Source: Methylophaga thalassica MP (GTDB lineage Bacteria; Pseudomonadota; Gammaproteobacteria; Nitrosococcales; Methylophagaceae). From it: a stretch of 64,000 bases of DNA. This document shows, piece after piece, positions 8,173 through 59,261 of this stretch (position 1 is the first letter of the stretch; the number at the start of each line of letters is the position of its first letter). The DNA lies in the NCBI RefSeq assembly GCF_000214595.1, contig NZ_AFIG01000001.1, positions 186,001 through 250,000 on the forward strand. The letters run 5' to 3'. The notes beneath the pieces are model-generated. The model saw only the letters and a list, made by a program, of their open reading frames with translations, was not told the origin of the DNA and did no database searches. Made by a program: the position numbers and the translations under genes.

Positions 8173-8177
8173 CTGTG

Positions 8178-11693: not shown

Positions 11694-11719
11694 TTCTTTG
11701 TCCTTTTATCGTTGTTTTT

Positions 11720-12480: not shown

Positions 12481-12992
12481 ACGCTGAGCTCGGGCATAAA
12501 TAATAAATCTGTCACCCCGACATCGACACCAGTCTGGTTCAGTGCTGTGGTGATTTGTCCCCGATGATGGGTTTGATGGTTAAAAAAATGAATAATCGCT
12601 TGAGTGAAATCGACATTCTTTTCGGCAGCAGCTGCCAGACTGGTATAGACCAAGCGTTCTGGCAGAACTGTCTCATCGAGTGAAGCTGCCCAATCAAGTA
12701 TCTCCAGATCTAATTCATCACGCGCTTTTTTTAGCTCCGTGAACTCACTGTAAAGTTCCTGATCCAATGCCTTCAGATCAGCTGAAGGAATCTGACCTTT
12801 AAATCGGTCTAGCCACATCCGATCGCACAACAATAGATGGTTTAAGGTGCCATGAATGGATTTGAAAAACAGTCCACAGTCTGCCTTGCGATCCTCATCG
12901 TTTAATTGACTGGCTGCCAGATAAACAGACTGGTTAATCCATTGGTTATAACGTGCCATTAACTCCGCATAAGTCGCGATATCCAGCTTCAT
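12477..12992 (-). CDS. DinB/YfiT-like four-helix protein
   Basis: 171-residue DinB-superfamily protein. Visible are ELMARYNQWIN at the start, the metal-site His in HGTLNHLLLCDRMWLDRF, and the third-helix HHRGQITTALNQ motif. Members are putative metal-dependent thiol transferases. I start at the ATG at 12992 because AAGGAG lies 6 bases before it; a longer in-frame start at 13055 would add 21 residues not found in the family. Confidence 0.9.
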   Translation of the reverse strand: MKLDIATYAELMARYNQWINQSVYLAASQLNDEDRKADCGLFFKSIHGTLNHLLLCDRMWLDRFKGQIPSADLKALDQELYSEFTELKKARDELDLEILDWAASLDETVLPERLVYTSLAAAAEKNVDFTQAIIHFFNHQTHHRGQITTALNQTGVDVGVTDLLFMPELSV

Positions 12993-13298
12993 CACAGGCT
13001 CCTTCATTGAGAGCAAAGAAGAAAATTCTAAATCATTCCATCTTATTTTTTTCAATCAAAATCAGTGGCTAAGGCAAGTTTATGATGTCTTTTTTTGAAG
13101 GTTTTAGTAATAAAAGTGAAAATCATCCACCGGCAACTCATTGATTATGCAAGTACTTAACGATAGAACAAAAACGCGATTAAGACTGCATAGCAATAGC
13201 ATAGTCAGAGTTTGTCTTATAGAAAAATGAGCCAAACACTCAGACTTTTGAAAGCCGATCCTATTTGATCCATAGCAGTTGTCAGCGAAGTAGCTACC
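12993..13298. other. Intergenic region, nothing recognised
   Basis: AT-rich spacer between the DinB and rlmJ genes, both on the minus strand. It must hold the promoter of the DinB-LysE pair. I see no RNA gene, clear hairpin-plus-T terminator or repeat. Confidence 0.5.
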
Positions 13299-14135
13299 TT
13301 ACTGCGCCACCAACGTATCAGCCCGATAAAATGCACCTGCATTTTCACCCAAGACTTTCACTAGTTTGGGCAGTAATGCCGTCATGGTCTCCATCAATTG
13401 CCAGGGTGGATTGATGACATACATGCCCGATGACGTCATACCACGTGTGGAAGCATCCGCATCCAACCCTAGTTCATAGCGTTGTATATGAGTAATGCCA
13501 CTATTAATCAACTGTTTATCCAGTCGATTAATACGTGCCCTGTCGACCACCGGATACCAGATTGCATACGTGCCCGTAGCAAACTTTTTGTGGGCTTTCT
13601 CGACGGAATGAAATACCTCATCGTAATCCGATTTGATCTCATAAGACGGGTCAATCAACACCAGTGCCCGACGTGAGTCCGGCGGTAATAAACTCAGCAA
13701 ACCTTTCAAGCCATCTTCTCGCCGAACACGAGCCTGCTTATATTGGCGCAGATTATTGGTCAGGAACACACTGTCTTCCGAATGCAACTCAAAGCACCAT
13801 GCCTGATCCTGTGCACGTAAATATTGCATCGCCAACATGGGTGAGCCAGGGTAAAACGTCAGGTCATTGCCATCATTCACCGTCTTGACTGCCGTCTGAT
13901 ACGCCGCCAACTCTGGCCAGTCCAGATGAAACACCTTAGCAATACCTTTCTGATATTCCTGAAGTTTTTCTGCATGGTCTGAACGCAGGTGATATAGCCC
14001 CGCCCCTGAATGGGTATCGATATAACTAAAGGCTTTCTCTTTTTTCACCATGTGCTGAAGCAACTCAATCAGCACGATATGTTTTAACACATCCGCGAAA
14101 TTACCCGCATGATATGAATGACGATAACTTAACAA
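13299..14135 (-). CDS. rlmJ: 23S rRNA (adenine2030-N6)-methyltransferase
   Basis: 278 residues, matching E. coli RlmJ (YhiR) in length and in the N-terminal signature LSYRHSYHAGNFADVLKH. The SAM site is at IDTHSGAG and the catalytic motif is DPSYE near residue 165, typical of N6-adenine methylases. It modifies A2030 of 23S rRNA before 50S assembly. Monocistronic here. Confidence 0.96.
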   Translation of the reverse strand: MLSYRHSYHAGNFADVLKHIVLIELLQHMVKKEKAFSYIDTHSGAGLYHLRSDHAEKLQEYQKGIAKVFHLDWPELAAYQTAVKTVNDGNDLTFYPGSPMLAMQYLRAQDQAWCFELHSEDSVFLTNNLRQYKQARVRREDGLKGLLSLLPPDSRRALVLIDPSYEIKSDYDEVFHSVEKAHKKFATGTYAIWYPVVDRARINRLDKQLINSGITHIQRYELGLDADASTRGMTSSGMYVINPPWQLMETMTALLPKLVKVLGENAGAFYRADTLVAQ

Positions 14136-14295
14136 AGCAGAATCCTATAGAGATCAATGACATTATTCTGCAAATTATGCCTGTTAGTTACCGGTTTGAG
14201 TGGAAATTGTTGTAAGACTTAAATAATCCATGACAAAAAGTCTGCCAATTGATTCTATCCGGCGGAATCTAACCTCATTCGCTCATCAAAACGAC

Positions 14296-15792
14296 TTATT
14301 TATACTCATTTTGAAACAGCCTGACCCTGTTTCGGCCATGTCTTTTCGCATCGTACATAGCAAAATCAGCACAATTTAACAGCCCATCCTCTTCCGTGCT
14401 GTGCAGTGGATAAAGTGCAACACCAATGCTGGCACCGACACTGACGGTTAACTCCTCAAATGTCATAGGGCCTTGCAACGCTTCCAGTACTTTCTCGCCG
14501 ACTTGCAAGGCGGCCTGCTCATCAGTGACTTTATGCAGCAAAACGACAAACTCATCACCGCCAAGTCTGGCGACTGAATCAGGCTTACGCAGACATGAAC
14601 GGATTCGTTCGGCGCACTCAATCAAAACCGCATCACCGACATCGTGTCCGTAGCTATCGTTGATAGGTTTGAACTCATCCAAATCGATAAACATTAACGC
14701 TAAAGCGTATTTATCGCGTTCAGCCATCGTCATCGCCAAGTGCAGTCGTTCTCTAAACAAGATTCGATTTGGTAATCCAGTCAAAGCATCATGATGAGCG
14801 AGATGCTGCGCATGTTCTTCCATGACTTTTCTATCAGTAATATCGTAAAACCAGCCCAAGATCATTTGCTTGCTGTGATATTCAATTTGAAGATAGGAAG
14901 CGAGAACCCATTTTGTAGTTTGTTGACTCTCAGTGACATTGAGCTCAACTAACTGATTGTTAATCTGCTGCCCACGCTCAATTAACTTCACCGTCTCATC
15001 ATATTCGACTTTATTCGCGTAATAACGTCGAAGCTTGAGACCTAAAGCTTCCTGATGTTTCTTGTCAATTAAAGCGGCATAACTTTTATTGGCAAACACC
15101 ACTTCTTGAGTTCGGATATCGATTATAGATGCGGCAATCGGGCTGAAGTCCAACATCATTCTCAAGCGTGATTCGCTCTCTAATGCTTTGATGCGTAACC
15201 TGGCATTTTCCAGAAACGTTTCGCCTGACTTTCTTGCCACCAGAAAGACAAAAAACAAAAACAATAACAGCATGGCGCTCATGCCATATGTGATGGGTTC
15301 ACCTTCCTGAATAAGCAGCAAAATATGAGGGATCATCGTCGGAAGAACAAAAGCCACCACCGACCTTCGATCAACTGAGAGTGAAGCCATACCGCCCGAA
15401 GACAATCCGCCAATGGTGAATGATAAGAATGTCTGATAAGCCATGCTATCCAGCGGCATTAGGATCACGCCACCTACACCCCAAATGCTGCCGGTGACTA
15501 AAATACTGAAACGAAAATACTGTATCCAGCGAGCCTGATTACGCTCTGTTTTGTCCTCATCTCTCTGCCAGTAAACCAACAAAACGCATCGTGAGATCAG
15601 AACCATCAGCAATACCGCATACCAACTTAATGAGGTTGAAACGGGAATCACAGGAAGTTGAACAATAATCAGTATCAAGCCAACCGTGGCATTGATAGTG
15701 ATAGAGAAAATGCTGCCAGAAAAAAGCATTTTGACTTTCTGTTCTAAAACGCTTTCAACGTAAACTGGCTGGTCAGATCTGCTCTGGCACAT
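14296..15792 (-). CDS. Membrane PAS-GGDEF diguanylate cyclase
   Basis: 498 residues. About six hydrophobic segments lie between residues 22 and 190, then a PAS domain at about 210-325 (LDFSPIAASIIDIRTQEVVFANKSYAAL) and a GGDEF domain to the end. The active site GGDEF is intact (RLGGDEFVVLL) and the inhibitory site RxxD (RKPD) lies five residues before it, so it should make cyclic-di-GMP under product control. No linked target gene is evident. Confidence 0.94.
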   Translation of the reverse strand: MCQSRSDQPVYVESVLEQKVKMLFSGSIFSITINATVGLILIIVQLPVIPVSTSLSWYAVLLMVLISRCVLLVYWQRDEDKTERNQARWIQYFRFSILVTGSIWGVGGVILMPLDSMAYQTFLSFTIGGLSSGGMASLSVDRRSVVAFVLPTMIPHILLLIQEGEPITYGMSAMLLLFLFFVFLVARKSGETFLENARLRIKALESESRLRMMLDFSPIAASIIDIRTQEVVFANKSYAALIDKKHQEALGLKLRRYYANKVEYDETVKLIERGQQINNQLVELNVTESQQTTKWVLASYLQIEYHSKQMILGWFYDITDRKVMEEHAQHLAHHDALTGLPNRILFRERLHLAMTMAERDKYALALMFIDLDEFKPINDSYGHDVGDAVLIECAERIRSCLRKPDSVARLGGDEFVVLLHKVTDEQAALQVGEKVLEALQGPMTFEELTVSVGASIGVALYPLHSTEEDGLLNCADFAMYDAKRHGRNRVRLFQNEYK

Positions 15793-38211: not shown

Positions 38212-38514
38212 CTAACGAATTCTTGGATTAAACGCTTGCCGTGAGACACGGTGAGCGATAGTGATAGGTAAGGACATATGATCTTCCCCTTCTTGCAGGT
38301 AATACGCACTTCGAAAACCATAGACTGATAGGGCTTTCATTCTGTCTGCCAGTAGCTCAATATCCTGCCGTTCGTGCACATCATCGCCCTCTGCCACCAG
38401 CAGATACAGGCTTTTATCCACCATTGATACTTCACCCGCTTTGACCTGTTTTATTAGGTCTTCCTGATCTAAAAGTGATATCGCACATGATTTCTTTTTA
38501 CCCTCTGCCTTCAA
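38212..38514 (-). pseudogene. C-terminal remnant of a siderophore-esterase-like alpha/beta hydrolase
   Basis: 100 codons resembling only the end of IroE/Fes-type hydrolases: a strand plus acidic loop (LYLLVAEGDDVHE), a helix (IELLADRMKAL) and the catalytic-His region (QEGEDHMSLPITIAHRVSRQAF). The nucleophile elbow and oxyanion part are missing; the frame can begin only at a TTG without a ribosome site and no homologous residues can be read upstream. So it is a truncated relic at the edge of the iron island. Family assignment is by pattern and moderately sure. Confidence 0.6.
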
Positions 38515-38567: not shown

Positions 38568-38586
38568 GATAATGTATCTCATTATC
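38568..38586 (+). promoter_or_regulatory. Fur box upstream of fecR and the heme cluster
   Basis: GATAATGTATCTCATTATC matches 15 of 19 bases of the GATAATGATAATCATTATC Fur consensus. The same 19 bases occur before the other fecI gene (59243-59261, opposite strand). It lies 74 bases before the fecR start. Confidence 0.88.
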
Positions 38587-38659
38587 AAGTATGAAAATAT
38601 CCGTTTTCTACTGATGTCTCAACACGATCTTGAAAACTTATATTGAGAAAAACTGCTTC

Positions 38660-39610
38660 ATGACACAAGCCCTCACTAAAACCGATCCGATCAATCAAGC
38701 CTGTATCTGGGCAGCGAGACTCTGGGCAGACGATGTGTCAGAAGGGGATAAACAAGCTTTTCACCAGTGGCTTGAAGCAGACCCCATTCATGAAAAAGCA
38801 TGGCAACAAGTGTTAAATCTGCAACAGCAATTTAATGCGGTGCCCGACAGACATGTCGGCAGCAAAGTTTTACAACATCGTAGTGGTATCAGTCGTCGTC
38901 AACTGCTAACCGTGGCTGGTGTTGGCATCGGTGTCGGAGCAATAAGCATGGATCGCTGGTTGCCTTCACAGATGAAGGTCACTTCTTATGTCACGGCCAA
39001 AGGCGAAATTCGTCATTGGCAATTAAGCGATGGCACCACATTGGCACTCAATACTGACAGCAAGGTTGATGTTCAATTTGATTCAGTCTCTCGTAAAATC
39101 ATTTTACTTCATGGTGAAATCGCGATTGATACCGGTAAAGATATCAGGCCTATGTCGATTGTCAGTCGCGATGGTGTTATGGAACCATTGGGTACACGAT
39201 TTAATGTGCAGCAATCAGCGCAGGAAACACAATTAACGGTATTTGAAGGTCGGGTGAGAATCACACCAACAGAAACACCTGACTTACACACCATAGTTCC
39301 TGCTGGTGAAGGTGTTAACTTTTCAGCAGTCCAAATGGCTCAGCCGTTCCAGGCGGATCCTGTCTCGAGCTTATGGCTGGAAGGTAAACTCGCGGTAGCA
39401 GATATGCCGTTAAATGAGTTTGTCCAACAGCTAGCCAGATACCGCACAGGTATTGTTCGCGTTAGCCCCGAACTCAAACGTTTAACGATTACCGGTATTT
39501 TTTCTGTACAAGATAGTGATCGCGTGCTGGAACAGCTCACTGAAATTTTGCCTGTCAGAGTCAGCTACTTCACTCCTTACTGGGTCAGTATCAAACCACT
39601 GACGTCCTAA
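38660..39610 (+). CDS. FecR-type anti-sigma factor of the heme cluster
   Basis: 316 residues. Cytosolic helical domain at 1-75 with the DUF4880-like INQACIWAARLWADD and FHQWLEADPIHEKAWQQV motifs, one membrane segment at about 90-110, and a periplasmic FecR domain at 120-220 (LNTDSKVDVQFD, GEIAIDTGKD). It ends with a C-terminal STN-interacting region (LPVRVSYFTPYWV). It passes a receptor signal to a sigma factor. Unusually no fecI precedes it; the only candidate lies at the far end of the cluster. Clear paralogue of 57785-58723. The ATG is preferred to a TTG ten codons upstream. Confidence 0.9.
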   Translation: MTQALTKTDPINQACIWAARLWADDVSEGDKQAFHQWLEADPIHEKAWQQVLNLQQQFNAVPDRHVGSKVLQHRSGISRRQLLTVAGVGIGVGAISMDRWLPSQMKVTSYVTAKGEIRHWQLSDGTTLALNTDSKVDVQFDSVSRKIILLHGEIAIDTGKDIRPMSIVSRDGVMEPLGTRFNVQQSAQETQLTVFEGRVRITPTETPDLHTIVPAGEGVNFSAVQMAQPFQADPVSSLWLEGKLAVADMPLNEFVQQLARYRTGIVRVSPELKRLTITGIFSVQDSDRVLEQLTEILPVRVSYFTPYWVSIKPLTS

Positions 39611-39809
39611 TTTTTCTGTGGTTAACGACTTTCTTAGCCAATCACACCCGTTAAATTTCCCCAATAAAAACAAATGGATAATTACTTCACAGGGATCAGC
39701 TCGCCTAACAATCAGTTAATGCGAATAATTATTATTACGGATTTTCAATCCACATTCGGTATTACAAGTACAAACCACATTTACTGACAAATACTGAAGG
39801 AACTGAAAC

Positions 39810-42800
39810 ATGCCGTTACGTCGTTTCTTGCGACTACCCACTTTATTCATAACGCTTAATATGTGTGCTGCCACAGGTTTGTTCGCCGGTGTCAGCCAAT
39901 ACGTTTATGCACAAGACAGCAACACGGATGTTCAGTCTTTTTCTTTATCTGCAGGCAGCCTGGATCAGGTTTTACGTCAATTTGGTCTCAATGCCGGTAT
40001 TGCCTTGTATGTTGACTCCTCTCTAGTCAATCACCAGCACAGCAATGGATTGGTGGGTGACTATAGCGCTCAACAAGGCCTGCAAACCTTGCTGGCTGGC
40101 ACTGGACTCACTGCCGTTAAACAACCTGACGGCAGCTTCCGTATCGAACCTGTACCCACACTCACCTTATCTGAAGATGAAAGCAGCGTGGATTTAGGCA
40201 AAATCGACATTGTAGGTGACACACTACTTTTTACTCAAGACACCATTGGTTACAACGATGTGTTTGATAAAAATATCTCCAGCACCTATGTCGGAAAACA
40301 AGAGTTAGAGCGATTCAAAGGTTCATCACCCGCCGATATGCTCAGTGGCATGCTCAATGTTTATAGCGCCGATGCCCGAAACAGTGGCGGGATTGATCCG
40401 AATATCCGAGGCATTCAAGGTCCTGGCCGTGTGCCACTCACAATCGATGGTACCGAGCAGGCCATTACTATCTGGCGTGGTTACAACGGTGCCAATAACC
40501 GGAGTTATATCGACCCCAACCTCATCGGCAATATCAAAGCGATCAAAGGCCCCAACCTGGAACGTAATGTCCATAGCGGCATTGGCGGTGCCATCGTAGC
40601 AAATACGCTCACGGTGGATGACATCCTAAAACCAGGTGAAGCATTTGGCGGTGAGCTCAAACTTGAAGGTAGCAATAATGCCGTGGATGCAAATGTGCCC
40701 CGGTTATCAACGGGTCAGTCTTATACCGATATTCCTGGATTCGATCCTGTCGGTGATATCTACGATCCAACGCTTTATGTCGAACCTCATTCTGGTGGGC
40801 AAGACTACTTCGCTGACTATGCCTATCGTCTGGCCGTTGGTACGCGTCAGGAAAAATTTGATCTGATGGGGGCTTACGCTTATCGCAAAAAAGGTAACCA
40901 TTTTGCCGGTAAACATCAGGATGGTTTCTACTCCCGCGGCTCAGATAATCTTCAAGACAATATGATTCCGGACTTGGCAAATATCTATAAGCCAGGAGAT
41001 GAATTACCCAACACCTCCAGTGAAATGGAATCCTGGTTAGCCAAAGCCAAACTCAAATTCAGTGATGTTGAGAGCCTTTCATTCGGATATCGGGATACCT
41101 CTACTACCTATGGTGAAATATTCCCGTCACGTATTTCATGGGAAAGAGCCGTCGATGAAGGCGTACCACAATGGCCATTAAGTGAGGTCAAAGCTAAAGC
41201 GTACAACGTCGAATACGAACTTAACCCTGAAACCAATCGCTGGGTCGACTTTTACGCGAGTGTCTGGAGAACGGATACCGTCAGTGATACCTATACTGGT
41301 GGCGGTTACCCCAATGAACCTTATGACCGAAATGCTTCTGGTGATACTCGCTTGCGGAATACGGCAATCAGAAATGCCAAAGAAGATCGTAAAGGCGTCA
41401 CCTTAAGCAATACCTTTGCTTTGATGGATAACCTTGATCTCACCGTAGGCGGTCGTTATCAACATGAAAAATTACGCTCAGATGATCAATACGGTGACCC
41501 TGAACTAGACAGTGTTTTCAGAATGTTTCCCAAAGCTGGGCGTCGTCAGGAAAAAGAGATGAACTTCAACTTTGCCTGGAAACCGACACACTTTCTTAGT
41601 GTGGATGCCGGTATGCGTTATTCCTCTTTCTGGTCGTTTGATGATTTTCGTAAAAGCCAATTGGATGCAGGTAACACCAGCCTCAATAGTTATGCGCCTA
41701 CGATAGGAAGAACCATCCACGTTGAATATGACAAAGTGATTACTCAGGCTGATGTCGATCCAGAAATACAGAATTGGGAAGATAACCGTGCCTTCTGGGA
41801 GTCAATGGGCGCTGACGTAGACGCATTCATCCAGCAGATTCAAGATACTGTAGGTACAACGGAAACGGCATCCTATGAGAGCGTCTGGAAAGTCGGTAAA
41901 GATGGAAAATATTATAGAAATAATCACCCCTGCTTAACGGCTGATGTCGATGTGACGGCATGTCATAAGGGGGCGCAGGTCATTGGTAATGTGCAAACCA
42001 TTAAAAAGGTGAAACACCTCAAAGGGGATGGCTGGGCTCCGGTTCTGTCGGTTGCGATGGATCTGAATGACGATAGTCGCATTTATGCTCGTCATAGTCA
42101 GGCTTATCGTTTCCCCAGTTTATTTGAAAATACCATTAGCTTTTCAGCCTCACTGCCCAATCCAAATTATGAGTTAAAACCAGAGCATATTTATAACTAT
42201 GAAGTGGGTTATGTGCATAACTTGGCAGGGGTTTTTGATGCGGATTATGCCGATATCAAACTCAGCTATTTTTATAACCGTACTGAAAACGTTATCGAAC
42301 GTGATCCTAATAGTCACTTCAGTAATTTGGAAAAACAAACACTGGAAGGCATTGAGTTTCAGGGACGCTATGACAATGGCGGCTTTTTCACCAACCTGAG
42401 CCTTGCTTATAACTTCGAAAATGAAGTCTGTGATGAATCATCTGCTGTTGTATTAGATTACCGCTCCACCAGTGATTGTGTTGAAGATGGCTTTGTCGGC
42501 GGTTATCTGGTGAGCATGGCTATGCCGGAATACACCGCTAACTGGACGTTAGGCGGGCGATTTTTCAATCGTAAATTAGAGCTGGGAAGCCGTGTCACCT
42601 ATTACTACAAACATCAGGACAAGTTTGAAAGTAATTATCGTGATCCTTCAGACATCACTTTCTTCGCTAATACGCCACTGTCATGGGACACCATCCTATT
42701 ATTTGATGCCTATGCCAGCTACCAGTTAAACGATGACATCAGTGTAGAGCTGACCGGCACTAATCTCAGCAATGAATATTACATCGATCCGATGAGTCGT

Positions 42801-42857
42801 TCTGCCATTCCAGCTCCAGGACGCACATTCAAACTCAGCCTCACGGCTAAATTTTAA
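39810..42857 (+). CDS. TonB-dependent heme/hemophore receptor with STN domain (HphR-like)
   Basis: 1015 residues. Signal peptide to about 34, then an STN signalling domain at 40-115 (FSLSAGSLDQVLRQFG), a plug at about 150-290 with ADMLSGMLNV and NIRGIQGP, and a 22-strand barrel ending in Phe. STN and the neighbouring fecR mark it as a transducer of surface signalling. The next genes encode a hemophilin-like protein, Slam and heme oxygenase, the neighbours of the Acinetobacter hemophilin receptor, so heme or hemophore is the likely ligand. AAGGA ribosome site. Confidence 0.9.
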   Translation: MPLRRFLRLPTLFITLNMCAATGLFAGVSQYVYAQDSNTDVQSFSLSAGSLDQVLRQFGLNAGIALYVDSSLVNHQHSNGLVGDYSAQQGLQTLLAGTGLTAVKQPDGSFRIEPVPTLTLSEDESSVDLGKIDIVGDTLLFTQDTIGYNDVFDKNISSTYVGKQELERFKGSSPADMLSGMLNVYSADARNSGGIDPNIRGIQGPGRVPLTIDGTEQAITIWRGYNGANNRSYIDPNLIGNIKAIKGPNLERNVHSGIGGAIVANTLTVDDILKPGEAFGGELKLEGSNNAVDANVPRLSTGQSYTDIPGFDPVGDIYDPTLYVEPHSGGQDYFADYAYRLAVGTRQEKFDLMGAYAYRKKGNHFAGKHQDGFYSRGSDNLQDNMIPDLANIYKPGDELPNTSSEMESWLAKAKLKFSDVESLSFGYRDTSTTYGEIFPSRISWERAVDEGVPQWPLSEVKAKAYNVEYELNPETNRWVDFYASVWRTDTVSDTYTGGGYPNEPYDRNASGDTRLRNTAIRNAKEDRKGVTLSNTFALMDNLDLTVGGRYQHEKLRSDDQYGDPELDSVFRMFPKAGRRQEKEMNFNFAWKPTHFLSVDAGMRYSSFWSFDDFRKSQLDAGNTSLNSYAPTIGRTIHVEYDKVITQADVDPEIQNWEDNRAFWESMGADVDAFIQQIQDTVGTTETASYESVWKVGKDGKYYRNNHPCLTADVDVTACHKGAQVIGNVQTIKKVKHLKGDGWAPVLSVAMDLNDDSRIYARHSQAYRFPSLFENTISFSASLPNPNYELKPEHIYNYEVGYVHNLAGVFDADYADIKLSYFYNRTENVIERDPNSHFSNLEKQTLEGIEFQGRYDNGGFFTNLSLAYNFENEVCDESSAVVLDYRSTSDCVEDGFVGGYLVSMAMPEYTANWTLGGRFFNRKLELGSRVTYYYKHQDKFESNYRDPSDITFFANTPLSWDTILLFDAYASYQLNDDISVELTGTNLSNEYYIDPMSRSAIPAPGRTFKLSLTAKF

Positions 42858-42935
42858 TCATGAGACAAGGAGGTGGTTTCTCAAAAAAAAGCAGTGTTAC
42901 CGAATAACTAACTATTTTTTAAATACGAGGACAAT

Positions 42936-43667
42936 ATGATGAAAACATTACAAAAACTATCAATTCTTGCTTTAGCTTTAGGTCTAAGTGGTATGGCTCA
43001 TGCGACAGAATCAGGTCAAAGCTATTTAGGTGATATAACTGTGGGTGGAATCACTAGTACTATTCCTTCACACCCTGGAACCATCGGGGCACCAGGTGTT
43101 GGCGTTACTGCTTTTTATGGTGGTGCAATGGTAAGTTTCTCAAACCTTACCAGCATGGTTAGTGCTGATGGCAATGGTATCTACACCATTACGCCGGCCA
43201 TGATGCCGCCTTCTCACGCATCTCTGGGTAATTTTGATTTCGCTAAAGTATCAGGACAGGAAGTCTATTTTGGTGAATGGTCACAAAATGGCACCACAAA
43301 CGATCCAACCCGTGTGGTTTATTACTCAGGTGATGACACAGGCACCACTATGCCAACTACTGGTACAGCGGCCTATACCGTTAAAGGTATCAACAATTAC
43401 AACGGCTCTAACTTACTGACCGGTACGCTGAACGCTAACTTCGGCACTGGCAACCTATCCGGCTCAATGAGCAGAAGCGGTCTAAGCATTGCTATCAATG
43501 CATCAATTAACAGCACAGATGCCAGCTTCTCAGGTGCCGCTTTAGCTAATAGCTCAACTATGGGTACCACTGAAGGCCACTTCTATGGTGCTGATGCTGC
43601 CGCTTTAGCAGGGATTGCTAAATTTGCTAACCGTAATTATGACACTGCTTTTGGTGGTGCTAAATAA
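42936..43667 (+). CDS. hphA: Hemophilin-like Slam-dependent secreted heme-binding protein
   Basis: 243 residues with a signal peptidase I leader (LGLSGMAHA|TES) and no lipobox, so it is released rather than lipid-anchored. The C-terminal half is a small eight-strand barrel closing with GHFYGADAAALAGIAKF and a final AFGGAK, the handle-barrel ending shared by TbpB, HpuA and hemophilin, which are Slam clients. His46, His94 and His215 are the only mature histidines and so the candidate heme ligands. It sits between the receptor and the Slam gene. The assignment rests on pattern and neighbours, not on a search. Confidence 0.78.
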   Translation: MMKTLQKLSILALALGLSGMAHATESGQSYLGDITVGGITSTIPSHPGTIGAPGVGVTAFYGGAMVSFSNLTSMVSADGNGIYTITPAMMPPSHASLGNFDFAKVSGQEVYFGEWSQNGTTNDPTRVVYYSGDDTGTTMPTTGTAAYTVKGINNYNGSNLLTGTLNANFGTGNLSGSMSRSGLSIAINASINSTDASFSGAALANSSTMGTTEGHFYGADAAALAGIAKFANRNYDTAFGGAK

Positions 43668-43694
43668 TCATTGTTAGTTCAAGGATGAAACATG

Positions 43695-43723
43695 GCCAGA
43701 TGCTTTCGGGCATCTGGCTTTTT
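43695..43723 (+). terminator. Intra-operon terminator between hemophilin and Slam genes
   Basis: 9-bp perfect stem GCCAGATGC/GCATCTGGC with a TTTCGG loop and five T (after one C), 28 bases after the hemophilin stop. It should lower expression of the translocon relative to its secreted client. It overlaps an upstream in-frame ATG (43692), which is therefore not the Slam start. Confidence 0.88.
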
Positions 43724-43730
43724 CCTTTTC

Positions 43731-45251
43731 ATGAGTTTCAACATGATTTTTGATGTATACCAATCTTATCGTTATCCCATATCAGTGTGGATAGCATTTT
43801 TGTGCCTGACCGTTTTATCGATCACCAGTCAGAACAGTTGGGCAGATGATAAAGACACGTCTCTCCGCTTAAACCAAGGAATCGAGTTACGCGCTGATCA
43901 ACAAGAGCAGGAAATCCTGAAAGATGAGGACTATTTGCGAGGTGAACGGCCCAGTTTAATCATTGATGGTCAGTCATACACCGTTCAGCACAACAGTAAT
44001 GATGTCGGCCGTGCCTTGTATGTGTCATTGCAGAAAAAACAGTGGTCGTCGGTGAAGTTTTTTCTGCAAGAATATGAAGAATTTGCTGATGCAGATCCTA
44101 TGCTGCTCGCCTATGCACGGGGTGCTATTGCACGAATGGAAGGTGATCTGGAACAGGCAGAAACAGAATACCGCCAGCTTATCGACTTAAAACCCGACTT
44201 TTTGCCCGGTCAGTTAGAACTCGCGCGCGTGCTGTTTGAAAATAGGAAAGATGCAGAGTCAGATCAGGTGTTTGGCAGCATTCAACAGACATTAAATCCT
44301 GCCGATGCACGTCAGCAAGGCGTTAGCACCACGGTAGATAGTTTTTTGCAGGCTTTAGATAAACGCCAGTCATGGCAAGGTTCCTTTTCCATTGGCCCAA
44401 CCTGGGTCGATAACTTAAACCAATCCTCTGAAAGCTACAGTTGCTTACTCTATTTTGGCAATGTCTGCTTTTACGAACGTGAGACACCCGAAGCGGTGAA
44501 AGCACATGGCCTGGATTACGAAGCCACACTGAATAAACGATTTGCTTTATCAGGCCATCATGGTGTGTTTTTCCGTTCATTATTATTTGGTCAAAGTTAT
44601 AAAGATCATTCTGACTTCAATGAAAGCCAAATCACCTCACAGCTAGGCTATAGCTATCACGCTCAACGTAATCAGTTTTCATTCGCCCCTTCTTTTGATT
44701 TCTCACGTTATGGTCAGCGCTCCATGTATGGTGCCTGGGGTTTACATAGTGAGTGGTTACATTATGTGTCTGATCGTATGCTGTTTAAACTCGAAGCCGA
44801 CTACAAAGATCAGCAGTATCGACAAGAAGACTATGCTGCTTATAACGGTGATATCTGGTCAGCTTACGCCACCGCCTGGTATGTATTTCCTCACCTCTGG
44901 ACTGTCTTTGGCGGTGTGGACTGGACGCAAAAACAGGCTGAAGTGGAACCCTATGCCTATCAGCAAATAGGCATCAGAGCTGGTCTGTCCAAAAAATTCA
45001 ATGAAGACATTAACGCCGTGCTTTTTGCCTCTGTGCGTCAACGCAAACATGATGAATTTAATGCCTTACTTGGTGAGCAGCGTGAAGATATTGAGCAAAA
45101 CTACACACTTATCGTGCGTTTCCCCGGACTGAGTTTTTATGGGCTGGAACCTAATCTCACCCTGAAGCATCGAAAAGTGCATAGCAATGTGAACTGGCTT
45201 TATTCCTATGAACGTAATGCTGTGAGCCTCCGACTTGAGAAACAATTTTAA
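43731..45251 (+). CDS. Slam/HsmA outer-membrane translocon (DUF560, type XI secretion)
   Basis: 506 residues: signal peptide ending NSWA|DD, a periplasmic TPR domain at about 85-190 (PMLLAYARGAIARMEGDLEQAETEYRQLI type repeats), and a DUF560 14-strand barrel from about 220 to the terminal Phe (ALSGHHGVFFRSLLFG, SLRLEKQF). Slam proteins move surface lipoproteins or hemophilins across the outer membrane; its client should be the adjacent hemophilin. The start is at 43731 or 43743, since the longer frame runs through the terminator. Confidence 0.86.
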   Translation: MSFNMIFDVYQSYRYPISVWIAFLCLTVLSITSQNSWADDKDTSLRLNQGIELRADQQEQEILKDEDYLRGERPSLIIDGQSYTVQHNSNDVGRALYVSLQKKQWSSVKFFLQEYEEFADADPMLLAYARGAIARMEGDLEQAETEYRQLIDLKPDFLPGQLELARVLFENRKDAESDQVFGSIQQTLNPADARQQGVSTTVDSFLQALDKRQSWQGSFSIGPTWVDNLNQSSESYSCLLYFGNVCFYERETPEAVKAHGLDYEATLNKRFALSGHHGVFFRSLLFGQSYKDHSDFNESQITSQLGYSYHAQRNQFSFAPSFDFSRYGQRSMYGAWGLHSEWLHYVSDRMLFKLEADYKDQQYRQEDYAAYNGDIWSAYATAWYVFPHLWTVFGGVDWTQKQAEVEPYAYQQIGIRAGLSKKFNEDINAVLFASVRQRKHDEFNALLGEQREDIEQNYTLIVRFPGLSFYGLEPNLTLKHRKVHSNVNWLYSYERNAVSLRLEKQF

Positions 45252-45263
45252 TCGGGAAGATTT

Positions 45264-46568
45264 ATGTCACGCATCCTTTTTTATCTGTTTTTATCGTTTT
45301 ATTCTCTATATGCCAGTGCTGCCGATAATAGCTGGCAAACTCTACAAACACAGGCGACTGAAGCATTTAAAGCAGAAGATTATCAAACAGCTGAAACAAC
45401 CATAAAACAAGCGATTGCCGTTACAGAAAAAGCTGATAATGGGGCGGCCTATAAAGCCAGCAGTCTTAATTTATTAGCCTTTATTCAGGAGGCACAAGGT
45501 CAACATGAACAGGCAATGACAAGCTTATCAACCGCGGTGACCTTGGCAAAACAAGCCCTAGCCTCACCAGATGAGCAAATAGCCACCTTATTATTTAATC
45601 AGGGCGTATTACTGCAAAAAAATCATCAGCTAAATAAAGCCGATAACGTGCTGGATGAGTCCATAGAACAATTCCAGCTCAGCCAGAGTGATGGTGATGG
45701 CAAGTTGTGGCAGGCCATTTTATTAAAGACGCAGATCCTGATCTCACTAGGCAATCAGCAGCAGGCATTACATCTGGTTTCAACCACTTTATCTGACTTA
45801 ATGGAAAAAGCAGGTACTCAATTACCCTTATCGGTAGAAAGCGATTTAGTGTTATCAGCCGCTAACATTCAATTAAAAGAGGGTCAGTATTATCAAGCCA
45901 TCACCTCACTTGAACAGATAAAAAAGAAACTCAATGGTGAATCAAAATTGGCCGCTGAACAGTTGCCAGAGTTGCTGAATTTACTCGCCATAGCCTATGA
46001 CAAATCTGGTCAGACAGATAAAGCAGCTTCAATCCGAGAGCAAAGTCTCAATGCACAAAATGATAGCCCCGCCTCGATGGCAACAGTGATGCAGCTCAAT
46101 GAATTAGGTTTATATCAACAGCAACAAAACCATCTTGAGCAGGCAGCACAGTATTATCAGCAAGCCTTGTCACAACTGAAGTTATTGGACAAAGAACACA
46201 GTATTGAACAAGCCACCATTTTAGGTAATCTCGGCGCGTTACAACTGGCGACACATGATACAAAAGCGGCTGAAGCGTCTTTATCGCAGAGCTTAGCGTT
46301 ATATCAAAGTATGCAGGAAAGACCTGTTGAGGCAGCAGGCATTGCCGGTTATCTCGGCACTTTGTATTACAACAAACGACAATTTGCTAAGGCCGAAACG
46401 GCTTTTCTAACCGCCGTAGAGAACTTGCAAAAGACCCAATCTACAACAAATGAAAACATGCTACTGGCTTTACAAAATATACAGTCGCTTTATATCGCTT
46501 GGGATAAGCCTAGTAAAGCCGCTCAGTACAATCAAGCCATCCAGAAGATTAAACAACTACTTCAATAA
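45264..46568 (+). CDS. Periplasmic TPR-repeat protein of the hemophilin cluster
   Basis: 434 residues: signal peptide (LFLSFYSLYASA|AD), then about eight to nine TPR motifs to the end (LNLLAFIQEAQGQHEQAMTSLS; LNELGLYQQQQNHLEQAAQYYQQAL), of Kinesin-light-chain-like spacing. It starts 12 bases after the Slam stop. A scaffold or chaperone for the hemophilin on its way to the Slam barrel is a reasonable guess. Not a known part of the minimal Slam system. Confidence 0.85.
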   Translation: MSRILFYLFLSFYSLYASAADNSWQTLQTQATEAFKAEDYQTAETTIKQAIAVTEKADNGAAYKASSLNLLAFIQEAQGQHEQAMTSLSTAVTLAKQALASPDEQIATLLFNQGVLLQKNHQLNKADNVLDESIEQFQLSQSDGDGKLWQAILLKTQILISLGNQQQALHLVSTTLSDLMEKAGTQLPLSVESDLVLSAANIQLKEGQYYQAITSLEQIKKKLNGESKLAAEQLPELLNLLAIAYDKSGQTDKAASIREQSLNAQNDSPASMATVMQLNELGLYQQQQNHLEQAAQYYQQALSQLKLLDKEHSIEQATILGNLGALQLATHDTKAAEASLSQSLALYQSMQERPVEAAGIAGYLGTLYYNKRQFAKAETAFLTAVENLQKTQSTTNENMLLALQNIQSLYIAWDKPSKAAQYNQAIQKIKQLLQ

Positions 46569-46648
46569 AAATCAGCTGCTGCATTACGGAAATCAGCGTC
46601 TGCTTCGGTATATCAAATAACACAGACTTTTATTTACAGGATAAACCG

Positions 46649-47257
46649 ATGACAGACCAACTCACTCTTTCAAACGCCTTACGCAGCGAAACACATGACT
46701 TACATGAAGTACTGGATAAACGTGTGATGCAATTAAACCCGTTTGCAGATAGCGAACATTATCGGGGCTTTCTGCGTATGCAATTACGTCTTCATACTGC
46801 AGCAGAACCGCTATATCACAACAGCAATCTCTTAAACTTACTGCCTGACCTCAGCGGTCGCAGCCGTCTTAATGCTGTTTTAGCAGACTGTGAAGATGTT
46901 GAATTAAATAAAACGCTGCTCAGCGAAGATCAGCGTATTGCGAGCTATATCAGGATCGCAGATGAACATGAAGGCATTGGCTGGTTATATGCGTTGGAGG
47001 GCTCAACACTGGGCGCGGCGATGTTACTCAAACATGTCAAAAACCAACTGAACTTATCTGAAACCTTTGGTGCCAGCCACATGGCAGCACACTCGGACGG
47101 ACGCGCCACTCACTGGAAACAGTTTAAAGCGATGCTAGACCAACTGGAGTTAACTCCGGCACAACGTGAAAAAGCAATAACAGGGGCAACACAGGCTTTT
47201 ATTTTTGTCACTGATGCCGTTAACGATGTAATGATAGATGATGCTATAGCGAGTTAA
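46649..47257 (+). CDS. hemO: Biliverdin-forming heme oxygenase
   Basis: 202 residues, all-helical heme-oxygenase family (BphO/HemO type). The proximal His is likely His19 in ETHDLHEVLDK, and the distal helix GWLYALEGSTLGAAM carries the family glycines. It cleaves imported heme to biliverdin, CO and iron in the cytosol. It sits directly after the hemophilin export genes and 3 bases before DUF454, so this is the intracellular end of the pathway. Confidence 0.92.
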   Translation: MTDQLTLSNALRSETHDLHEVLDKRVMQLNPFADSEHYRGFLRMQLRLHTAAEPLYHNSNLLNLLPDLSGRSRLNAVLADCEDVELNKTLLSEDQRIASYIRIADEHEGIGWLYALEGSTLGAAMLLKHVKNQLNLSETFGASHMAAHSDGRATHWKQFKAMLDQLELTPAQREKAITGATQAFIFVTDAVNDVMIDDAIAS

Positions 47258-47260
47258 ACC

Positions 47261-47659
47261 ATGGTTATAACGTTATTGTGGCGCTTTTTCGCACTGATTT
47301 TTCTCGGTATTGCCTTCGCAGGCGTGATATTACCGGGCTTACCCACTACCGAGTTTCTATTGATGGCGCTCTGGTGTTCGGCAAAAGGCTGGCCACAATT
47401 ACACCACTGGTTATTACATCATCCGCGGTTTGGTCACATGATTCAGCAATGGCAGCAACACCGGGCGATACCCCGACGCGCTAAAGTGATAGCTCTAGTG
47501 TCGATGACGATAAGCTGCTGTCTACTGTTTTTAAGTGGACTGCCTCTCTGGGTGAAATGTGTTAGCTCAAGCATGATGGTGGCCGTATTGTACTGGTTAA
47601 TTACCCGGCCAGAGCCATCAAATGATACAGAAGTTAGTCAGATGAAATTGAAGCAGTAA
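47261..47659 (+). CDS. DUF454 (YbaN-like) membrane protein
   Basis: 132 residues with three hydrophobic segments and the DUF454 opening FFALIFLGIAFAGVILPGLPTTEFLLMALWCSAKGWP. Family members often accompany heme-oxygenase genes; function unknown. It starts 3 bases after hemO and its 3' end overlaps the convergent sigma-factor gene by 26 bases. Confidence 0.9.
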   Translation: MVITLLWRFFALIFLGIAFAGVILPGLPTTEFLLMALWCSAKGWPQLHHWLLHHPRFGHMIQQWQQHRAIPRRAKVIALVSMTISCCLLFLSGLPLWVKCVSSSMMVAVLYWLITRPEPSNDTEVSQMKLKQ

Positions 47660-48140
47660 GACACGCCTGTAAGCCTTTGGCGATATATTTTTCAACCGAG
47701 GAGACAGACACATTGAGTCGCTCGGCAATGGCTTTGTAGCTCATGCCATCCAACTGTCTCATCAATAAGGCTTGACGCACATTGGCAGGCAGACGATGTA
47801 ATAAGCTATCAATTTCGGTCAAGGCTTCTATCATCAACGCCTGAGTTTCAACCGAATGGGCTGTGTCCTCGGGTTGTTGTTTCAGATAGTCCAGATAGGC
47901 TTCTTCCACACGCCGACGGCGAAACACATCAATAACCAGCCCTTTAGCAATATGTGTGAGATATTTACGTGCATCTTTTTGCTCAGGTAGTCGACCACTT
48001 GTGAGTATCCGTAGATAGGTATCCTGAATCAGATCAGCCGTGGTCTCTGGACAACCCATTCGCCGCTGAATAAATACCGATAACCAACCACGGTGCTCCA
48101 GATACAGATTCTCGATTGTGTCTGTGTGGGTGGCACGCAT
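47634..48140 (-). CDS. FecI-type ECF sigma factor at the end of the heme cluster
   Basis: 168 residues, sigma-70 region 2 (TADLIQDTYLRILTSG) and region 4 (LPANVRQALLMRQLDGMSYKAIAERLNVSVSSVEKYIAKGL), as in iron-responsive FecI factors. AAGGAG ribosome site and a Fur box upstream. It is convergent with DUF454 and has no fecR beside it; the unpaired fecR lies 9 kb away at the other end of the gene cluster, so the pair seems split. Confidence 0.9.
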   Translation of the reverse strand: MRATHTDTIENLYLEHRGWLSVFIQRRMGCPETTADLIQDTYLRILTSGRLPEQKDARKYLTHIAKGLVIDVFRRRRVEEAYLDYLKQQPEDTAHSVETQALMIEALTEIDSLLHRLPANVRQALLMRQLDGMSYKAIAERLNVSVSSVEKYIAKGLQACLTASISSD

Positions 48141-48174
48141 GATGTTCTCCTTAAAAATAGCTATATTTACAAAT

Positions 48175-48193
48175 CTTAACGAGAATCATTATC
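48175..48193 (-). promoter_or_regulatory. Fur box upstream of the sigma-factor gene
   Basis: Minus-strand GATAATGATTCTCGTTAAG matches 14 of 19 Fur-consensus positions, with the left nine bases perfect. It lies 35 bases before the sigma-factor start. Confidence 0.75.
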
Positions 48194-48361: not shown

Positions 48362-49471
48362 TCAGGGCAAAATGGTGGCAACCAGTTCTGAAGGAGTGAG
48401 TTTGAAGCGTTTTTTAAAGGCAGTAATAAAGTTTGACGGGTGTCCATAGCCTGCAATAAAGGCGGCTTCACCTATGGATTTCTTGTCGACCAATAATGCT
48501 TTTTTTGCCATATCCAGACGTCGTTGACGACAGTAGTTATTCACCGTCACCCCATAGGTCGTTTTAAATTTACGTTGTAAGGTACTCACACTCAGCCCTA
48601 TCGCTGAAGACATTTCTGCAATGGTCATGGATTGCATCATCATGTCATCAATTTGATGTCTTAGTTGGTTTTCCTGTGATGCAGTTGCATAGGATTGATC
48701 TGTATTTTGTGGTCTTTCTGCTCGATGAAGTAGGGTTAATACCTTCAAGTTTTCAGCGATCAGTTGAAAGATGATCGCCTCTTTCAGTAACTCATCCTGA
48801 AGAGATGTGTGTTGGGCTTTAAATAAATAATCACTGGCCAGCTTTGCAACAACATCAGAAGCTTGCCAATGGTAAAAAGCAGCATGGTCATGAAATAGCT
48901 GTTGAATATGATGCCTTTCGTCTGGTGTAGTCGCTCTTTGCTCAAGCCATTGTCGTTCGATAAATATATTCAGTTTATTCACATGCATACCGCATTCAAA
49001 ACGGCGACTAAGCACTTCAGGTTGGTTAATAATAAAAGCGGAACATTCCACACTGCCCTCACCAAGACAACCTAGCTGATAGCGTTGTGAGCCAAGCGAA
49101 AATGACACTTTTCCATCAAATAAGATAGTCATGCTGATCGCCGGAGGCAGTTCTGCAAAGCTGGTTCTATCCGACATTTCTATTAAGTTACCGGCATGCA
49201 CAGACAGACCATGTCGATCAAAATGATGATGAAAGAGGCCTTTTAGAATGACTTCATCCTGAGCCGTGTCTTGTGAAAAACTGACGTAACGTACATTCAT
49301 TCGATTCAGCTCAGACAGATAAACCATATTATCCAGTGTTGCCGTCACCTGATTGTCTTGTTTGTTTGACGAAGAGTCATTCTGTTCGACATCGGTAAAA
49401 CCTGAGTCTTCATCTGATACCCCTATTTCATCTGACTGATGATTTTTCATAACACTATGACGTTTACTCAT
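48362..49471 (-). CDS. AraC-family regulator (siderophore-receptor type)
   Basis: 369 residues from ATG 49471, with an N-terminal variable effector domain and a C-terminal double HTH (MTIAEMSSAIGLSVSTLQRKFKTTYG; SIGEAAFIAGYGHPSNFITAFKKRF). It is divergent from a siderophore-type receptor, the PchR-like arrangement. Starts at 49504, 49471 and 49450 are all possible; the frame continues to 49555 but would run through the Fur box, so it is not used. Confidence 0.88.
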   Translation of the reverse strand: MSKRHSVMKNHQSDEIGVSDEDSGFTDVEQNDSSSNKQDNQVTATLDNMVYLSELNRMNVRYVSFSQDTAQDEVILKGLFHHHFDRHGLSVHAGNLIEMSDRTSFAELPPAISMTILFDGKVSFSLGSQRYQLGCLGEGSVECSAFIINQPEVLSRRFECGMHVNKLNIFIERQWLEQRATTPDERHHIQQLFHDHAAFYHWQASDVVAKLASDYLFKAQHTSLQDELLKEAIIFQLIAENLKVLTLLHRAERPQNTDQSYATASQENQLRHQIDDMMMQSMTIAEMSSAIGLSVSTLQRKFKTTYGVTVNNYCRQRRLDMAKKALLVDKKSIGEAAFIAGYGHPSNFITAFKKRFKLTPSELVATILP

Positions 49472-49512
49472 AACTCTTTTAAGGAACTTAGCTGTTAGCC
49501 TCATTATATAAT

Positions 49513-49531
49513 GATAATGATTTTCATTTAC
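49513..49531 (+). promoter_or_regulatory. Fur box in the AraC/receptor divergent promoter
   Basis: GATAATGATTTTCATTTAC matches 15 of 19 Fur-consensus positions and overlaps further ATGATA repeats. It lies between the divergent AraC and receptor starts, so one site could control both. Confidence 0.85.
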
Positions 49532-49576
49532 AAAAATAAGAAAGAAATCGTTCAACGCTTATTGTTAAGGGGATTT

Positions 49577-51634
49577 ATGAAAAAACATATTTTAACAGTC
49601 ACGATCTACGCATGCCTCAGTACACATGTGCTGGCTGAGGACAACACAACTCATCCGATAGACAAAGCAAATAACCGCGTGCAACTCAACAATATTGTGG
49701 TTAAAGGTGAAAAAGAAACAAAAACCCTGAAGGACACCTCCTCCTCCGTCGCTGTCATCCATGAAGAGGAACTCAATAGTACTCAATATCAGTCGTTTCA
49801 GGATGTCATCGCAACCGTACCAAACGTCGTCGTTGAAACTGGAGCCGTGCCAAATGTTCGTGGCATCACAGGTAATGGTGCTGCCGGTGGCTTTCTCTCG
49901 GTCACTGGTGGAGCCAATGCTAGATTCACCACACTGATTGATGGGGTAGCACAACCCTTTGTCGCCGATCTTACGGGTAGCTCAGGATTATGGGATTTGG
50001 AACAAGTTGAAGTTTATAGAGGACCACAATCGACAAATAATGGCCGTAACAGTATCGCCGGTGCGATGTATATCAAAACGAAAGATCCCTCTTTCGATTG
50101 GGATGGAGCAGTACGCTTAGGCTATCGTAATAAAGATAAGTACTTTGATAAGGCGGTGATGCTTTCAGGTCCAATTATCGAAGATACACTAGCCTTCCGG
50201 TTTGCTGGGCAGGCTGTTGATGGAGAAACAACAACCAGTAATGAACCATTTAGCACCAATCCAACCAACCTAGATTTAAATGAACTGGATACTCAACAAG
50301 GTCGGTATAAGCTACTTTGGACACCAACTGATGACTTTAAGGCCTTGTTTACGTATTCAAAATATAAAGAAGAAGGCGATGCTGGCAGACGTTACTTCAG
50401 AAATGATGGTGTGGGTGGCTACAATAAAATTGACTCTTTAATTCGCGATATGGACACCGAAAACGAAACATTTAGCCTCGACATGTCATATCAACTCAAC
50501 GACAGCATGTCAGTCGATATGCTCGTATCTAAAATGAATTACCAACTTAGTTTTGATAGCTATGACCCTCTCCCTTCCTCAAAGCAATCTGCCAACTTTA
50601 GTGAAGATAACAAAGACGTCGATCTCAAACTCAATTTTGGCCAGGATAGTAACGTTTTCAATGGCTTAATAGGACTCTCATATTTTAAGCGTGATCAATC
50701 CATTAAAAGTCTTGGTGGCAGCGTTTATTCTGGAGATGATGACAGCAATGCCAAAGCACTCTACTCCGAACTCAATTTTGGTTTGGCAGAGAAATGGATC
50801 TTAACCACTGGGCTTCGCTATCAAAAAGAAGAGCAGGATCGTCATTTCGATTATACCTCTCGTAACATCTCTGCAGACTTGAAAGAAGATAATAAAATTT
50901 TGTTACCTTCTGTCGCGCTTAAGTATGCATTTTCAGACACCTCAACTGTCGGTATAAGTTATAGAAAGGGATATAACTCAGGCGGTGGTGCATTAGACAT
51001 TACTGCCGGTGATTATTATTACTACGATGAGGAACGTGTGGATACATACGAAATCTTTAGTCGTAATGAATTTGATGATGGCCGATATACACTGAATGCC
51101 AACCTATTCTTTAATGAATATGATGGTTATCAGGGTGTTTCCAGCCGTCGTATCATTAATATCGATACTGCCGAAACCTATGGCGCCGAGTTAGAGGGTG
51201 TTGCATGGGTAACTGATGATATTGAAGTGACAGCCTCATTAGGACTATTACACACTGAAGTTATTGATGGTGGTGATGACTACACATCTGCGACGGGCAA
51301 TCAACTGAGCACGGCACCGAAAAAAACAGCCAACCTCGGGGCAACCTACTTCCTGACCGATAATTTTAATTTCGGAGGCAATATTCAATATATCGGTGGC
51401 TATTATGGTGATATTGATAACTCGGACGATCAAAAAGTAGGCGGTTACTCCGTGATCAACCTTCGAGCAAACTATGAAATAGGTCAATTATCACTTTCTG
51501 CTTACGTCAACAATGTAACAGACAAATATGCTGAGCGTGTTGTTTACCCTATTACCGCACAATATACACAAGGCTTTAAGGATGTGATTGACCCTCGTAC
51601 AGTGGGTATAGCCGCCACATATTCGTTCTTTTAA
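49577..51634 (+). CDS. TonB-dependent siderophore receptor (no STN domain)
   Basis: 685 residues from the ATG at 49577: signal peptide (LSTHVLA|ED), plug at about 45-165 (SVAVIHEEELNSTQYQSFQDVIATVPN; LEQVEVYRGPQSTNNGRNSIAG), barrel to the terminal Phe. No STN domain, so regulation is through the AraC gene rather than sigma signalling. Ligand unknown; similar to PvuA/IrgA-type carboxylate or xenosiderophore receptors. The frame extends to 49511 through the Fur box, which is not translated. Closed by a terminator. Confidence 0.92.
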   Translation: MKKHILTVTIYACLSTHVLAEDNTTHPIDKANNRVQLNNIVVKGEKETKTLKDTSSSVAVIHEEELNSTQYQSFQDVIATVPNVVVETGAVPNVRGITGNGAAGGFLSVTGGANARFTTLIDGVAQPFVADLTGSSGLWDLEQVEVYRGPQSTNNGRNSIAGAMYIKTKDPSFDWDGAVRLGYRNKDKYFDKAVMLSGPIIEDTLAFRFAGQAVDGETTTSNEPFSTNPTNLDLNELDTQQGRYKLLWTPTDDFKALFTYSKYKEEGDAGRRYFRNDGVGGYNKIDSLIRDMDTENETFSLDMSYQLNDSMSVDMLVSKMNYQLSFDSYDPLPSSKQSANFSEDNKDVDLKLNFGQDSNVFNGLIGLSYFKRDQSIKSLGGSVYSGDDDSNAKALYSELNFGLAEKWILTTGLRYQKEEQDRHFDYTSRNISADLKEDNKILLPSVALKYAFSDTSTVGISYRKGYNSGGGALDITAGDYYYYDEERVDTYEIFSRNEFDDGRYTLNANLFFNEYDGYQGVSSRRIINIDTAETYGAELEGVAWVTDDIEVTASLGLLHTEVIDGGDDYTSATGNQLSTAPKKTANLGATYFLTDNFNFGGNIQYIGGYYGDIDNSDDQKVGGYSVINLRANYEIGQLSLSAYVNNVTDKYAERVVYPITAQYTQGFKDVIDPRTVGIAATYSFF

Positions 51635-59242: not shown

Positions 59243-59261
59243 GATAATGAGATACATTATC
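59243..59261 (-). promoter_or_regulatory. Fur box upstream of fecI
   Basis: On the minus strand GATAATGTATCTCATTATC, identical in all 19 bases to the box at 38568-38586 and 15/19 to consensus. Bases beyond the box (TGAA and AT context) are also alike, suggesting a common origin for the two control regions. Confidence 0.9.

Follow-up and report, generated by a model that had tools for sequence, protein, structure and literature searches.

Gene content of the locus

We analysed a window of 64,000 nucleotides from Methylophaga thalassica MP (contig NZ_AFIG01000001.1, positions 186,001 to 250,000; genome of 3.26 Mb in three contigs), in which positions 38568-48193 hold eight genes: the anti-sigma factor gene fecR, a TonB-dependent receptor, a small secreted client protein, a Slam-type translocon, a tetratricopeptide repeat (TPR) protein, a heme oxygenase, a DUF454 protein and the sigma factor gene fecI (Table 1). 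This locus is very probably a hemophilin heme-acquisition system under the control of Fur and FecI/FecR. A sequence-only reading of the same DNA had proposed a complete HphA-type hemophilin/Slam heme-uptake locus with a dedicated TPR protein, and sequence, predicted fold, gene order and distribution support it. Each of the eight genes is an open frame where that reading had placed it, with a strong family match. Its account of order and content stands except for fecI, which it listed in line with the other genes but which lies on the opposite strand and runs convergently, and each end it chose for the locus falls on the outer edge of a Fur-like box. The gaps from the client gene through the DUF454 gene are 24, 12, 80 and 3 bases, so these genes probably form one operon. 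The fecR frame opens at a TTG at 38630; comparison with a second genome of the same species (L062) makes the ATG at 38663 the likely start, because the preceding codons resemble the remnant of a deleted upstream fecI.

The Slam gene is the sole PF04575 match in the genome and covers profile positions 1-288 of 288, together with positions 5-102 of 104 of PF24575; it adjoins a client with a TbpB-type barrel, 24 bases separating the client stop from the Slam start. For the receptor, the best NCBIfam model is the heme/hemoglobin receptor TIGR01785 (3.2e-60) and the best PDB sequence match is the HasR chain 3ddr (4.2e-35), and its sequence is 44-46% identical to the receptors of three Acinetobacter loci that were aligned. 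Alignments of the heme oxygenase to HemO and pa-HO show that a histidine near the N terminus is kept, which we take to be the heme ligand.

Table 1. Features of the hemophilin locus, in order of position in the window
Feature	Position	Strand	Evidence
Fur-like box GATAATGTATCTCATTATC ahead of fecR	38568..38586		15/19 to consensus
fecR, anti-sigma factor	38663..39610	+	PF04773 2e-20; DUF4880 8.5e-13
hphR-like TonB-dependent heme/hemophore receptor, STN signalling domain, 1015 residues	39810..42857	+	PF00593 6.5e-32; PF07715; PF07660 (STN) 8.2e-8
hph, secreted hemophilin-type hemophore, 243 aa	42936..43667	+	HphA_N, HphA_C
HphA_N heme-binding domain, residues 21-126	42996..43313	+	
His46 codon, aligned with HphA ligand H43	43071..43073	+	
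His94 codon, aligned with HphA ligand H106	43215..43217	+	
HphA_C / TbpB-type barrel, residues 137-243	43344..43664	+	HphA_C 1.5e-25; TbpB_B_D 1.2e-8; strands in model
Slam / DUF560 type XI outer-membrane translocon (HsmA-like)	43692..45251	+	PF04575 8.6e-55; PF24575 (TPR_Slam) 6.3e-26
TPR superhelix protein, 434 residues, signal-like N-terminal stretch	45264..46568	+	TPR_12 1.5e-22
Heme oxygenase (HemO/PigA type)	46649..47257	+	PF01126 3.5e-23; PDB 1j77 HemO 1.3e-32
DUF454 (YbaN) protein	47261..47659	+	PF04304 2.5e-36
fecI, extracytoplasmic function (ECF) sigma factor, convergent	47634..48140	-	Sigma70_r4_2 3.5e-18; ECF_sigma_FecI 9.6e-47, below cut-off
Fur-like box ahead of fecI	48175..48193		15/19 to consensus

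The client and its heme ligands

The client matches HphA_N (PF22828, 1.4e-23) and HphA_C, both over the cut-off, and its model has the 8-stranded TbpB-type C-terminal barrel of hemophilins. In the structural comparison, hemophilins take all of the first six places, whereas an unrelated fold was the outcome that the sequence-only reading had named as speaking against its idea. Two of its details have to be corrected. The GHFYG...AFGGAK end, which it had called a handle, belongs to the C-terminal barrel, the heme-binding part being N-terminal; and the few histidines, from which it had suspected a different mode of heme binding, include His46 and His94, which align with both HphA ligands, so that a different mode is rejected. 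The Pseudomonas client (L006) has two histidines only, and these are the counterparts of His46 and His94. With a hydrophobic N-terminal stretch ending in AHA (signal peptide judged by eye) and no cysteine, the client is probably a soluble protein exported by Sec, without a lipobox cysteine. But could its ligand be something other than heme, a different tetrapyrrole or a heme protein for instance, as is the case with other Slam clients? Cargo varies among Slam clients, and the N-terminal domain of this client differs strongly between strains; however, the HphA_N match, the retention of both ligand histidines in both allele classes described below and the heme oxygenase gene within the operon make this very improbable.

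Two further clients deserve mention. The client of L040 (genome G012, 5708-9766) is 31-33% identical to that of the window, yet its Slam is 63% identical and its receptor is split into two frames; this is the same cassette with a more distantly related hemophilin. In L041 (genome G022, 9921-13767), the hemophilin gene contains one in-frame stop and the receptor extends over two frames, while the TPR frame is open; the broken frames reflect locus decay or sequencing errors.

Gene order and distribution

The comparison covers 39 loci, namely the window, 31 found with its client, 4 in further Methylophaga genomes and 3 of 11 plasmid matches; having been drawn with the window client, the sample is skewed to near relatives. 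The nearest relatives at the locus are Methylophaga, with client identities of 92% (Methylophaga sp. SAT92) and 87% (M. aminisulfidivorans HyVt-380). The same gene order in other Methylophaga, for which the sequence-only reading had proposed a search, was found: in each of the nine loci of the genus, Slam, TPR, heme oxygenase and DUF454 follow one another in that order, with a convergent fecI. In Acinetobacter, Slam, a TonB-related gene, heme oxygenase and DUF454 follow in order in 21 of 21 loci, with fecI and fecR in front in 20; L027, the remaining one, is a short contig. The TonB model was built from seven of these 21 loci, TonB_C of Pfam being confirmed in four (L008, L010, L020, L027), and it misses the TonB of L042, L004, L040, L064 and L065. 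The reading that the other loci have neither TPR nor TonB was therefore dropped, as TonB is present in L064 and L065.

The TPR family occurs in none of the nine remaining loci, which are neither Methylophaga nor Acinetobacter. In eight of these, all but L015, Slam is followed by ExbB, ExbD and TonB in Vibrio (L065), by heme oxygenase in Novosphingobium (L066), by a sigma factor in Pseudoalteromonas (L064, with the TonB set in a divergent unit) and by unrelated or unassigned genes in L006, L007, L009, L031 and L032. Three Methylophaga loci carry ExbB, ExbD and TonB between DUF454 and fecI (L042 3412-5805, L004 14775-16991, L040 13814-16130), a position at which these genes were not found in the other six. 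HphA_C is present in 4 of 369 genomes of the class and in 7 of 58 relatives (own genome included in each), the latter all within the genus; G058, outside that set, also has it.

The earlier statement that such loci are known mainly from host-associated bacteria does not hold: hemophilins have been solved from Vibrio harveyi and Stenotrophomonas maltophilia, and loci lie in seawater Vibrio campbellii and on a Pseudoalteromonas plasmid. On that plasmid (L064, Pseudoalteromonas sp. KG3, 1942-14432), a whole hemophilin cassette stands beside transposase genes, one of them IS200/IS605, and a replication gene, a possible route of transfer. In the V. campbellii locus (L065), receptor and hemophilin are separated by two frames at 3758-6645, which encode 441 and 470 residues and have starts like those of lipoproteins.

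Exchange of the heme-binding domain

Compared with L062, the genes of the window locus are 93-99% identical in DNA, except the client gene (85%) and the TPR gene (80%). Within the client, identity is 71.3% over residues 24-110 and 94.7% over residues 111-243, and L002 and L041 differ in the same way (69.3% and 98.2%). The N-terminal domains fall into two classes, A (window, L002, L004, L042) and B (L062, L003, L005, L041), and the N-domain tree holds class B together at 99/99. The N-domain rejects the same-species pair (approximately unbiased test, p 2e-4) and the pairing of L002 with L041 (8e-5); the class B grouping, in turn, is rejected by the C-domain (4e-6) and by Slam (7e-87), and the same-species pair is supported by Slam (100/100) and less strongly by the C-domain (73/80) and TPR (65/93). 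These groups were named after the data had been seen, which makes the p-values somewhat generous, and the test leaves out L040, with its distant client, and all loci outside the genus. As a control, the two domains were never more than 8 points apart in 210 pairs of Acinetobacter loci. We conclude from these alignments and trees that residues 24-110 of the client, within the heme-binding domain, have been exchanged between species.

Among seven loci (L041 and L040 left out, gapped receptor columns unscored), six client columns split the classes perfectly, and none does so in the receptor (1040 columns), Slam (530) or TPR (455). Matching between receptor and client is thus not supported as the cause of the two classes. 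A joint exchange of client domain and TPR, both of which differ between the same-species genomes, was dropped as well, since the TPR gene does not follow the classes. There is a hint that a segment of the TPR gene was itself exchanged: in sliding windows over 45600-46650, identity is 71-82% to the same-species genome versus 91-97% to L002, L041 and L003, although the same-species pair remains compatible with the tree of the whole gene. The literature searched held no earlier report of recombination in hemophilin genes, the match obtained dealing with Acinetobacter iron uptake; overlap is possible with the work of Grossman et al. 2024, which reportedly deals with hemophilin diversification.

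The TPR protein

The TPR protein has a signal-like N terminus without a lipobox, as judged by eye, and is modelled as an all-alpha superhelix (predicted local distance difference test score 88.6). It is found in 8 of 24 genomes of the genus, exactly those carrying Slam, and was not found in the 16 without Slam; within the genus it is confined to this locus. The same eight have strong heme oxygenase matches, and the match of a ninth genome is weaker and exceeds the cut-off only slightly. At the level of loci, it is present in 9 of 9 from Methylophaga and in 0 of the 30 others examined, and outside the genus no match at E 1e-15 occurs in 368 other genomes of the class. Across 398 genomes of the phylum (own included), 18 others match at 1e-12, in frames of 700-2030 residues and one of 427; the matches cover at most about 300 of 439 positions and are probably generic TPR cross-matches. 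In the PDB, the protein is closest in sequence to a bacterial kinesin light chain-like protein (5.9e-15) and then to kinesin light chains, and the 50 matches listed for its fold are all TPR proteins of eukaryotic or designed origin. In the Pseudomonas locus (L006), a FimV-like gene with TPR_19 matches comes second after Slam and stands beside a semialdehyde dehydrogenase gene; both are probably flanking genes outside the cassette.

What, then, does this protein do? The periplasmic holdase Skp assists Slam1 in the transport of TbpB (PMC9090332), which makes a dedicated TPR export helper plausible. Several observations weigh against the proposed uptake system as a whole, helper included. The TIGR01785 score of the receptor, 204 bits, is below the cut-off of 317. 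For the inner-membrane step of heme import, the single FecCD permease scores highest against a BtuC model and its ATPase against one of heme type, and neither score reaches the cut-off. The window locus has no tonB, unlike Acinetobacter, and the six TonB_C matches of the genome all lie outside the window, so that the energy for the receptor would have to come from one of these six proteins. No column of the TPR alignment tracks the allele classes of the client, and the exbB-exbD-tonB genes right after Slam in Vibrio L065 indicate that the post-Slam slot is used for uptake genes elsewhere.

The Vibrio arrangement also favours the alternative that the TPR protein serves the receptor and TonB side in place of the TonB-related gene, or acts after uptake together with heme oxygenase, rather than in export. 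The gene occupies the exact slot of the Acinetobacter TonB-related gene in loci that have no tonB of their own, and its distribution matches that of strong heme oxygenase matches as well as that of Slam. However, the protein has no TonB_C match, and L004, L040 and L042 carry TPR in addition to ExbB-ExbD-TonB, so it is not a simple TonB replacement there; we consider this alternative unlikely, though not negligible. Even less probable is a lineage-specific passenger gene without a role in heme uptake. It would fit with the low conservation of TPR, which ranks below every other protein considered in 4 of 5 comparisons (43-44% to L042 and L004 versus 68% for Slam), and with the other hemophilin loci examined, which manage without this family. 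Against it stand the strict co-occurrence with Slam in the genus, the 12 bases from Slam stop to TPR start and the ratio of nonsynonymous to synonymous substitution rates, which is 0.19 (L062), 0.24 (L002) and 0.27 (L003), the highest among the computable genes in these three comparisons yet low enough to show that selection maintains the gene.

Fur-like boxes and the upstream region

Five Fur-like sites of at least 15/19 lie in the window, where 0.1 are expected per 64 kb by chance (20 simulated sequences). A box like that at 38568-38586 precedes the upstream fecI in L062, L002 and L041, and one of 14/19 does so in L003. The box ahead of fecI, at 15-17/19, is present in all eight Methylophaga loci that reach it, window included (L004 ends too soon), and a Fur-like box precedes fecI in both Acinetobacter loci scanned (L008, L010).

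Relative to L062 (38212-38650 against 48-5008), the window lacks about 3.2 kb, comprising most of an esterase gene and an 800-residue TonB-dependent receptor, and about 1.4 kb with a further fecI-fecR pair. A remnant of 100 bases carrying the Fur-like box now directly precedes the fecR of the hph locus, and the open reading frame at 38212-38514 is a remnant of the esterase. On the other side, at 48362-51634, an AraC-family regulator and a second TonB-dependent receptor lie divergently with overlapping frames, and Fur-like boxes at 49507 (16/19) and 49513 (15/19) precede that receptor; this is a separate neighbouring iron-uptake unit, kept in L062, L002 and L041. A further box (16/19) lies at 59243-59261.

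Proposed mechanism and significance

What we establish is which genes are present, the families to which they belong, the predicted fold, the conservation of the ligands, the order and distribution of the genes and where the boxes lie; from this we infer every biochemical step, the role of the TPR protein being the most conjectural. At low iron, Fur would release fecR and fecI. The client would be exported by Sec and then pass through the Slam barrel by way of its C-terminal barrel domain, and the TPR protein would most likely act in the periplasmic part of this step, either preventing the client from folding or docking it at Slam. Once outside, the client would be a soluble hemophore with heme bound between His46 and His94, and the receptor would take up this heme, powered by TonB encoded elsewhere in the genome. 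The STN domain of the receptor would signal via FecR to FecI and thereby raise expression, and heme oxygenase would open the ring to free the iron.

The core of this system is already known; what is new, as far as the literature searched shows, is the system as it occurs in Methylophaga, the TPR slot within it and the exchange of the heme-binding domain. In that literature, we found no earlier report of hemophilin, or of heme uptake via hemophilin, in Methylophaga, no title on a separate TPR partner for type XI secretion and no dedicated paper on heme oxygenase paired with DUF454. According to PMC12282271, cluster 1 type XI genes co-occur with heme oxygenase in 137 of 1,111 cases and with DUF454 in 118 of 1,111, and type XI genes are linked to single-carbon metabolism. 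Our findings place a whole hemophilin/Slam uptake system in a free-living methylotroph genus, where blood is an unlikely source of heme, and offer the type XI field a candidate extra component in the TPR protein. The separability of the two client domains, one exchanged and one kept with Slam, gives natural support to the published view of the barrel as export signal and the N-terminal part as interchangeable effector. Only tentatively do we go further and suggest that Methylophaga combines a dedicated periplasmic TPR protein for Slam export with a heme-domain cassette swapped between species while the Slam-targeting barrel stays with the local Slam, the exposed effector being under diversifying selection driven by heme source or by competition for shared hemophores rather than by host immunity.

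Comparison with known systems

Finally, we would like to place the locus beside systems already described. Closest is the hemO cluster of Acinetobacter baumannii, given in PMC10483418 as ECF sigma factor, anti-sigma factor, hphR, hphA, hsmA, a TonB-related gene, heme oxygenase and a hypothetical gene; equipped with no more than four of its genes, E. coli is able to use hemoglobin (PMC8560813). The window resembles this cluster in gene set and in order except for one slot, sharing Slam, heme oxygenase and FecI/FecR, and both clients have both ligand histidines, the window client being 44-49% identical to the clients of eight Acinetobacter loci aligned. Unlike the cluster, it has TPR in the TonB-related slot and a convergent fecI at the far end, so the order is not identical, and its genus shows domain exchange, which was not seen in the Acinetobacter pairs compared.

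Hemophilin structures, by entry title, come from Vibrio harveyi (8gm3), Stenotrophomonas maltophilia (8gmm) and Haemophilus (6om5, 8glo). The hemophilin of H. haemolyticus reportedly uses one histidine plus chloride/arginine, whereas the window client keeps both HphA histidines. The Hrp locus of Xenorhabdus nematophila (TonB, HrpA, HrpB, HrpC; PMC8406197) likewise combines a soluble client, a type XI translocon and a heme receptor; it differs in having TonB as a named member, and the available portion of that report names no TPR, FecI/FecR or heme oxygenase. The locus on plasmid pPsKG3_1 of Pseudoalteromonas sp. KG3 (L064) shares receptor, hemophilin, Slam, FecI, FecR, heme oxygenase and YbaN with the window, but is plasmid-borne, consists of two divergent units with ExbB, ExbD and TonB, and has no annotated TPR gene. 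HasA/HasR with HasI/HasS is similar in its secreted hemophore, its TonB receptor with a signalling domain and its control by an ECF sigma factor. HasA itself has an unrelated fold and is exported by a type I system.
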